57,357 nucleotides of DNA from Halorubrum lipolyticum DSM 21995 (GTDB lineage: Archaea; Halobacteriota; Halobacteria; Halobacteriales; Haloferacaceae). The DNA lies in NCBI RefSeq assembly GCF_000337375.1, contig NZ_AOJG01000019.1:1-57357 (forward strand), written 5' to 3'. Both the position numbers and the translations under genes were made by a program. Of this stretch, positions 10,705 to 17,703 are shown piece by piece. A model generated the notes under the pieces. That model searched no databases. It was given only the letters and a program-made list of their open reading frames with translations, and had not been told where the DNA came from. How positions within the stretch are numbered: position 1 is the stretch's first letter; each line of letters starts with the position of its first letter.

Positions 10705-10971
10705 CTACCGGGGACGCGCCTCGTGGACCCCAACGATATCGGTGAGGTCGTCGACCTCGGTGTCCGGCGCGAGCCGGAGCGAGGCGTCGACCTCGACGGT
10801 GAGGTCGTTGAGGCGCGGCCGGAGGGCGACGACGTCGACGTGTTCGACGTCGACGCCGTCGCGGCCGGCGAGCTTGGTGCGGACCCCGGCGTGGAGGTCG
10901 CCCGCGGCGTCGCGGGAGACCGCCAGCCGGAGCGCGACATCGGTCGCGCGGTGGCAGGAGTGGACTGCCAT
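10705..10971 (-). CDS. Conserved-looking small protein, unknown function, directly after tRNA-like element
   Basis: An 88-residue soluble protein, family not recognised. It begins MAVHSCHRATDVALRL and then alternates short strands and helices: DLHAGVRTKLAGRDGVDVEHVDVVALRPRLNDLTVEVDASLRL is split here as a helix followed by two amphipathic strands. Composition is acidic, suggesting a folded halophilic protein and not a shadow frame. An in-frame upstream extension to 11034 exists but would translate through the tRNA-like sequence, so ATG 10971 is preferred. That ATG starts 2 nt after the tRNA-like element ends. No TATA box is seen directly upstream, so it is probably expressed from the promoter upstream of the 33-codon ORF. 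Confidence 0.55.
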   Translation of the reverse strand: MAVHSCHRATDVALRLAVSRDAAGDLHAGVRTKLAGRDGVDVEHVDVVALRPRLNDLTVEVDASLRLAPDTEVDDLTDIVGVHEARPR

Positions 10972-10973
10972 AC

Positions 10974-11031
10974 GGACCCGGGAGGGAGTCGATTCCTCAC
11001 CCCGAGGCTCTGCCGCTTGAGCTACCGGGTC
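10974..11031 (-). ncRNA. tRNA-like element lacking the anticodon arm
   Basis: Read on the minus strand, 58 nt fold like a tRNA without an anticodon arm. The acceptor stem GACCCGG (11031-11025) pairs perfectly with CCGGGTC (10981-10975). TA occupies positions 8-9. The D arm is GCTC-AAGCGGCA-GAGC (11022-11007). Eight nucleotides (CTCGGGGT) replace the anticodon arm and variable loop. The T arm is GAGGA-ATCGACT-CCCTC (10998-10982, one mismatch). A discriminator-like C follows at 10974. It cannot decode, so it is a tRNA pseudogene, an integration scar, or a processing signal for RNase P/RNase Z that frees the 5' end of the next gene. Confidence 0.5.
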
Positions 11032-11103
11032 CAACTGTCGGAAATGGGGGAGAGAAGGCGGCGCTCGCTCCGACGGGCGAAGCCGGCCGCCCCCGCGTCG
11101 GGG

Positions 11104-11205
11104 TTACGCGGCGATGGCGTCGAAGCGAGCGACGACCGTTCCGCGACCCCGCTTCCCGACGCTCCAGAGGGGGGCGAGCATCGGGATGGTGTCGCGGACG
11201 GTCAT
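11104..11205 (-). CDS. Possible 33-residue protein
   Basis: A short frame encoding MTVRDTIPMLAPLWSVGKRG and ending in RFDAIAA. No family is recognised. It is the first open frame after a promoter-like AGTTAATAG (11265-11273) on the minus strand, and it precedes the tRNA-like element by 72 nt and the 88-codon gene by 132 nt. A mixed hydrophobic and basic composition could suit a small membrane-associated or regulatory peptide. Size alone makes it uncertain; it may be a chance frame. Confidence 0.3.
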   Translation of the reverse strand: MTVRDTIPMLAPLWSVGKRGRGTVVARFDAIAA

Positions 11206-11264
11206 GGGTGGGGCGCCCGGCGGGGGAGTCCGCTCGGGCGTATTCTCATTGACAGGAGGAACCG

Positions 11265-11273
11265 AGTTAATAG
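11265..11273 (-). promoter_or_regulatory. Possible TATA box of the tRNA-like mini-operon
   Basis: CTATTAACT on the minus strand predicts transcription starting near 11240, about 35 nt before the 33-codon ORF. Confidence 0.35.
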
Positions 11274-17464: not shown

Positions 17465-17528
17465 CACGAAACGATTCGTCGCCGCCGGTATCGACTCGCT
17501 TCGCTCGTCGATTGGCGGCGACAGAATA

Positions 17529-17601
17529 CGCCCGGAGCGGGATTTGAACCCGCGTCACGACCGTGACAGGGTCGTATGATGGGCCACTACACCATCCGGG
17601 C
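17529..17601 (-). tRNA. tRNA-Asp(GTC), second copy in transcription order
   Basis: 73 nt including discriminator G at 17529. Acceptor GCCCGGA pairs with TCCGGGC; the anticodon stem CGACC/GGTCG holds loop CTGTCAC (anticodon GTC); the T arm is GCGGGTTCAAATCCCGC. Identical in sequence to the copy at 17631-17703, 29 nt upstream of it in the transcript, so both are likely cut from one precursor. Confidence 0.95.
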
Positions 17602-17630
17602 AAACAGCGACAGACCCCGAAGCGTGGGGA

Positions 17631-17703
17631 CGCCCGGAGCGGGATTTGAACCCGCGTCACGACCGTGACAGGGTCGTATGATGGGCCACTACACCATCCG
17701 GGC
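17631..17703 (-). tRNA. tRNA-Asp(GTC), first copy in transcription order
   Basis: The same 73-nt sequence and fold as the neighbouring copy. It lies next to the promoter (TATA at 17733-17741), so it heads a two-tRNA transcript on the minus strand. Confidence 0.95.

Follow-up and report, generated by a model that had tools for sequence, protein, structure and literature searches.

A new structured mRNA leader, built around a tRNA-like element that stands directly before the start codon of a small gene, is present across the class of haloarchaea and is real on comparative evidence. The window, that is, the whole stretch of 57,357 nucleotides from Halorubrum lipolyticum DSM 21995 that was analysed, carries one copy of this leader. 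An earlier note on this DNA had described a promoter, a tiny ORF, a tRNA-like element and a small ORF in a row on the minus strand. Each of these parts was found where the note had placed it, and together they form a conserved unit (Table 1). The note had also named conservation of the fold and of the two ORFs in relatives as a check. This comparison was run, and all three are conserved.

Table 1. Parts of the leader and the small gene in the window, and intact tRNA genes that replace the element at three related loci
Feature	Position	Strand	Basis or remark
TATA-like element CTATTAACT	11273-11265	(-)	read directly; sole promoter candidate of the unit
33-codon upstream ORF (uORF; MTVRDTIPMLAPLWSVGKRGRGTVVARFDAIAA, then stop)	11205-11104	(-)	read directly; relatives across the class
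Hairpin / three-way junction, uORF stop codon in inner loop	11063..11130	(-)	folding, 58 loci
tRNA-like element, 58 nt	11031-10974	(-)	covariation across the class; without anticodon arm
Acceptor stem GACCCGG/CCGGGTC	11031-11025/10981-10975	(-)	part of window tRNA-like element
D-stem GCTC/GAGC, GG in loop	11022-11019/11010-11007	(-)	part of window tRNA-like element
T-arm GAGGA-ATCGACT-CCCTC	10998-10982	(-)	part of window tRNA-like element
Discriminator-like C	10974	(-)	3' end of window tRNA-like element
88-codon main ORF	10705..10971	(-)	haloarchaeal family, function unknown; predicted ferredoxin-like fold
Intact tRNA-Glu(UUC) replacing element	L112:1799-1871		
Intact tRNA-Glu(UUC) replacing element	L139:1815-1886		
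Intact tRNA-Glu(UUC) replacing element	L181 = G134:C1:2613694-2613765		

The upstream frame, its hairpin and the promoter

The uORF is 33 codons long in all 12 Halorubrum species compared. Its equivalents in other genera have about 26-70 codons, most end in ..AA before the stop or in similar small residues, and the second codon is Thr in 35 of 52 loci. The variable columns in Halorubrum are distributed 15/8/9 over the three codon positions, with no third-position excess. Since the variation is not concentrated at third positions, the uORF peptide is weakly constrained; where the frame lies, where it stops and how the RNA folds seem to be of greater importance than the encoded peptide.

The tiny ORF described earlier is a recurrent frame, but the hairpin around its stop codon had been overlooked. 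RNA around the uORF stop has a mean folding z-score of -2.53, compared with -1.00 in main-ORF controls (n=58, p 1.3e-7), in a set whose stops were found by requiring a GC-rich, Ala-like tail, which brings some bias toward stems, and whose related loci are non-independent. The fold consists of a stem that encloses a smaller hairpin with the stop in its loop, and the stop codon is unpaired in 45 of the 58 folds. Among 52 loci, 71% have a TATA-like box at -70 to -35 relative to the start of the uORF. None of the 52 has such a box at -70 to -35 of the main-ORF ATG, and one has it between the uORF stop and the main ORF. Because TATA-like boxes precede the uORF and not the main ORF, both frames and the intervening element appear to share one transcript, and a leaderless mRNA for the main ORF would require processing.

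Covariation and origin of the tRNA-like element

Taken alone, the 58-nt fold of the window is close to chance (z -1.06, with 31 of 200 shuffles equally good). The element was detected in the window by neither ARAGORN nor Rfam and lies below the gathering score for canonical tRNA (RF00005). Since the fold is unremarkable by itself and missed by both programs, conservation became the question. In the T-arm test, a 5-bp stem with an [AT]TCGANN loop had to end 9-12 nt before an ATG. Of 92 non-redundant loci, which represent several families of the class, 87 have such an arm before the ORF, a count that is slightly favoured because the T-loop had some part in the choice of start codons; the same test is positive at 7 of 2254 other ATGs (0.3%). 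The spacing of 9-12 nt corresponds to an acceptor strand of 7 nt followed by a further 2-5 nt. The element had been said to end directly before the start codon, which holds for the window, where GT separates it from the ATG at 10971, and for the relatives, where the acceptor end lies 2-5 nt from the ATG.

For the pairing analysis, the 5' acceptor strand was placed by the adjoining D-arm motif and not by complementarity to avoid a circular test. Among 27 distinct sequences, including a few Halorubrum second copies whose anchor was moved two bases by hand before the count, double-sided changes occur in 12 of 12 pairs of the acceptor and T-stem (79 such cells). Pairing is found in 94.1% of cells, a value as high as this is seen in 0 of 500 shuffles, and slid registers give at most 56%. 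The T-stem alone is 94.7% paired in 64 distinct sequences, with 73 double changes. When the acceptor complement was tested by shuffling, 49% of loci reached a best score of 17 or more, versus 8% of shuffles. This test is weaker than the anchored one because some genera, Halobaculum and its relatives, have a 5' acceptor strand that is short or hard to place. With compensatory changes in every pair and no shuffle as good, the tRNA-like fold is, by this comparative measure, real and selected; the earlier note had proposed a covariation search, and the fold does covary.

Some copies deviate. The T-arm of the window has one A-C mismatch, and its loop is ATCGACT instead of TTCGANN. In family f6, L114 has a variant element with an altered T-loop and an ORF start about 17 nt downstream, and no clear tRNA-like element was found at L108; this family retains the uORF and the hairpin, with the element unrecognisable or altered. 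A near-identical element (TAGCTCAAGCGGCAGAGC ... GAGGAATCGACTCCCTC) is seen in two lineages, L009/L039-L047 and L031/L061/L090, whose ORF proteins are only about 43% shared; the element may have been exchanged between them or conserved to an unusual degree. An element model (R1) run on 27 genomes matched mainly real tRNAs and known loci and missed the window copy, so it was unable to list further uses of the element.

In most examples, constrained folding yields the acceptor together with the D-arm and T-arm. A middle (anticodon) arm is lacking in the window and in, for example, L110, L119 and L130, and is variable elsewhere. Its absence, reported from the window sequence, is therefore correct there but does not define the element, since a middle arm is present in many relatives, and three of them carry a complete tRNA-Glu. 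The L112 element scores 59.4 bits in Rfam and thus passes as a canonical tRNA, and ARAGORN reads those of L112, L139 and L181 as tRNA-Glu(UUC). These intact tRNAs end 2-4 nt from the ORF in L112 and L139; in L181, an exception to the tight spacing, the ORF starts 22 nt past the tRNA. The three loci do not form one clade in the protein tree, which is poorly resolved. As three members have an intact tRNA-Glu(UUC) at the same place, the element is a tRNA derivative that has kept the top half and, elsewhere, lost the decoding half needed in translation.

Other tRNA genes were also observed. Some lie near L112 and L139, and the window itself has a tandem pair of tRNA-Asp(GUC) genes with equal scores, 28 nt apart (17528-17703, minus strand). 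Dense tRNA arrays (Gln, Asp, Pro, Ser, Leu, Tyr, Glu, Arg and others) are found at L177, L179, L180, L182, L184 and L196-L202 in several haloarchaeal genomes, perhaps set on mobile elements. The tRNA-Glu of these arrays closely resembles the tRNA-Glu that precedes the ORF in L181.

The small protein and its gene neighbourhood

Relatives of the 88-aa protein occur in 61 of 119 genomes of the taxonomic family, and a profile built from 42 diverse members finds the protein in 171 of 292 genomes and 55 of 77 genera of the class. When the first profile was run against the whole phylum, matches were confined to genomes listed as the order of the window or closer. No Pfam or NCBIfam family scored above its curated cut-off for the 21 members tested. 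This is a previously undescribed haloarchaeal protein family of unknown function. AlphaFold2 predicts a beta-alpha-beta-beta-alpha-beta fold (pLDDT 82.6); the matches in the PDB are generic (ferredoxin/ACT/S6/EF1B-like), and no function is drawn from them. Variation in the main ORF is biased toward third positions (11/9/22 in a comparison of three sequences). A second copy of the family is more widespread in the genus and lies at G000:C2:4900-5193 in this genome. Among viral sequences, 19 pattern matches in IMG/VR were followed up, and none was confirmed.

The genes for Pus10 (TIGR01213, tRNA Psi54/55 synthase) and RNase HII lie 3' of the small ORF in several genera of Haloferacales and are in the same direction at L014, L028 and L048-L062. 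The neighbours differ in Halorubrum and other families, and the uORF-element-ORF unit stays. Pus10 was also considered as the carrier of the element and rejected: in 24 genomes, its start codon has no T-arm of this kind before it. Since the unit is kept across neighbourhoods and the T-arm is absent before Pus10, the element belongs to the small ORF.

Processing of the leader and competing readings

The best explanation, to which we assign a probability of about one half, is that the tRNA-like element is excised in the fashion of a t-element, leaving a near-leaderless mRNA. The unit, its conservation, its fold and the lack of a recognisable internal promoter are observed, and the two cleavages, the leaderless translation and the regulatory logic are the parts that we infer. 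The promoter, the uORF with its stop-codon hairpin, the tRNA-like element and the small-protein ORF would belong to one transcript. The element retains what the enzymes of tRNA ends need, namely a 7-bp acceptor, a 5-bp T-stem with a TTCGANN loop and usually a D-arm, and it may be without the anticodon arm. RNase P would cleave at the 5' end of the element and tRNase Z just past its 3' end, so that the element is released. The 5' end of the mRNA would then be a few nucleotides before the AUG, fit for haloarchaeal leaderless translation, and the supply of the protein would hinge on both tRNA-processing capacity and ribosome traffic through the uORF. The message of the small gene may accordingly be controlled or shaped by the enzymes that process tRNA. 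The earlier note had proposed the RNase Z cut and a leaderless downstream message, and this reading is supported in part.

Loss of the anticodon arm with the acceptor, the T-arm and the usual D-arm kept is in line with enzymes whose targets are the ends of tRNA. The closeness of the acceptor end to the ATG in nearly all loci also counts for processing, as do the compensatory changes in all 12 pairs, the TATA-like boxes before the uORF but not the main ORF, the intact tRNA-Glu(UUC) at three loci and the constant association of the element with the small ORF. In Haloferax, t-elements on plasmids allow crRNAs of natural size to be freed by RNase P and tRNase Z in vivo (PMC4326828), and leaderless forms make up the majority of the mRNAs whose start has been mapped (PMC4983044). 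To obtain nothing more than a leaderless 5' end, a promoter at -27 would be the simpler solution, and a regulatory role in addition is therefore likely. The exceptions at L181, L114 and L108 and the deviating T-arm of the window also count against excision. At 25 of 52 loci, GGAG or GAGG lies no more than 18 nt from the main ATG, mostly inside the acceptor strand, and a sequestration model fits this as well.

The closest known relative in arrangement is the 5S t-element of Haloferax volcanii. This haloarchaeal tRNA-like element (Hoelzle 2008 and 2012, cited in PMC4326828) lies directly 5' of the 5S rRNA, whose end it sets when cut by tRNase Z, and the window element is likewise placed before its RNA. 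The 5S element is a substrate of tRNase Z, and elements of this kind are generally substrates of RNase P too; cleavage of the window element would be the counterpart. The covarying acceptor and T-arm and the 3' end directly before an RNA are traits of t-elements that the present element shares. Unlike the 5S t-element, which precedes a stable rRNA, it stands in front of an mRNA start codon, has a uORF with a stop-codon hairpin upstream and is tied to one protein family. By analogy, the present leader may work like a t-element. Plant-mitochondrial t-elements and tRNA punctuation (PMC8003010) are tRNA-like signals for processing mRNA ends and are in this respect comparable to the present element. 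They are organellar and usually have no linked protein family or uORF. In the bacterial yjdF riboswitch, a tRNA-Lys homologue is placed in the leader (PMC9142559), and as here, a tRNA-derived elbow fold lies in the 5' leader beside the translation start. yjdF is ligand-responsive and not described with a uORF, whereas the present leader is archaeal and has one. In Rfam, no leader family reached the gathering score in the window, and yjdF was not among the matches up to E 10 at 20 loci. A literature search found no description of the present leader; a 2012 survey of tRNA-like elements in Haloferax lies outside this comparison.

The main rival to excision, which we consider rather unlikely, keeps the tRNA mimic uncut in the leader, where an elbow-binding protein, perhaps the small protein itself, blocks or permits initiation at the AUG. 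Aminoacyl-tRNA synthetase operators provide an analogy, and this reading accounts for much of what also speaks for excision. The element is tied to the small gene in any neighbourhood, as expected of an autogenous operator, and the predicted compact ferredoxin-like fold is common in RNA-binding proteins, although the fold matches are generic. GGAG lies within the acceptor strand at many loci, but a Shine-Dalgarno sequence is not conserved, as seen from CCGGGTCCGT, CGACCCCCTC and CGTCGGCGT before the ATG. The downstream Pus10 of several Haloferacales genera modifies U54/U55 of the T-loop, but this adjacency is found in one family only. yjdF is a precedent for a tRNA-derived leader that controls translation (PMC9142559). 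Attenuation by the uORF as the main switch is improbable. Here, ribosomes would open the stop-codon hairpin and alter the folding or accessibility of the downstream element, and thereby main-ORF expression. The stop codon indeed lies within the loop of a conserved hairpin in most loci, and the uORF and promoter are class-wide; however, the tRNA-like fold is far downstream and folds independently, and the uORF peptide is weakly constrained. Such uORF-dependent control may be combined with excision or with an uncut mimic.

It is very improbable that the tRNA-like RNA itself is the product (a stable decoy, a sponge or a split tmRNA-like molecule) and the ORF a passenger. The tRNA-like domain lacks the anticodon arm in many species, and the short frame ending in ..AA, with its stop in a hairpin loop, resembles the tag frame of tmRNA (SsrA). 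Against this, the ORF is co-conserved with the element across the class, and the uORF, with its own ATG, lies 5' of the whole element and is not enclosed between the acceptor strand and the T-arm. The alanine identity pair G3-U70 is also absent, pair 3 being CG, UA, GC and once UG, and no CCA is encoded, unlike in tmRNA. A decayed tRNA gene that lies upstream by chance and has no function would account for the tRNA-derived element and for a single-sequence fold that is not significant, but this reading is refuted by the class-wide covariation, runs against the fixed spacing and has a negligible probability.

Returning to excision and its regulatory side, a tentative and rather doubtful proposal is a regulatory RNA found throughout the class, in which a translated uORF, the stop-codon hairpin and the tRNA elbow mimic jointly gate the synthesis of a conserved small protein, either by tRNA-processing capacity or by the protein's own binding to tRNA-like RNA. 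The large number of natural variants from different species, with the t-element tools that exist for Haloferax, makes it possible to test there what the acceptor, the T-arm, the D-arm and the lack of an anticodon arm each contribute. The leader is a natural example, spread over the whole class, of what appears to be a former tRNA retained as a signal in mRNA, and it makes a directly testable prediction about leaderless translation. For Archaea, in which few structured leaders are known, it brings an undescribed, conserved protein family and a uORF whose stop codon sits in a hairpin. If the joint gating is true, tRNA maturation or tRNA load would be sensed by a leader derived from a degenerate tRNA.
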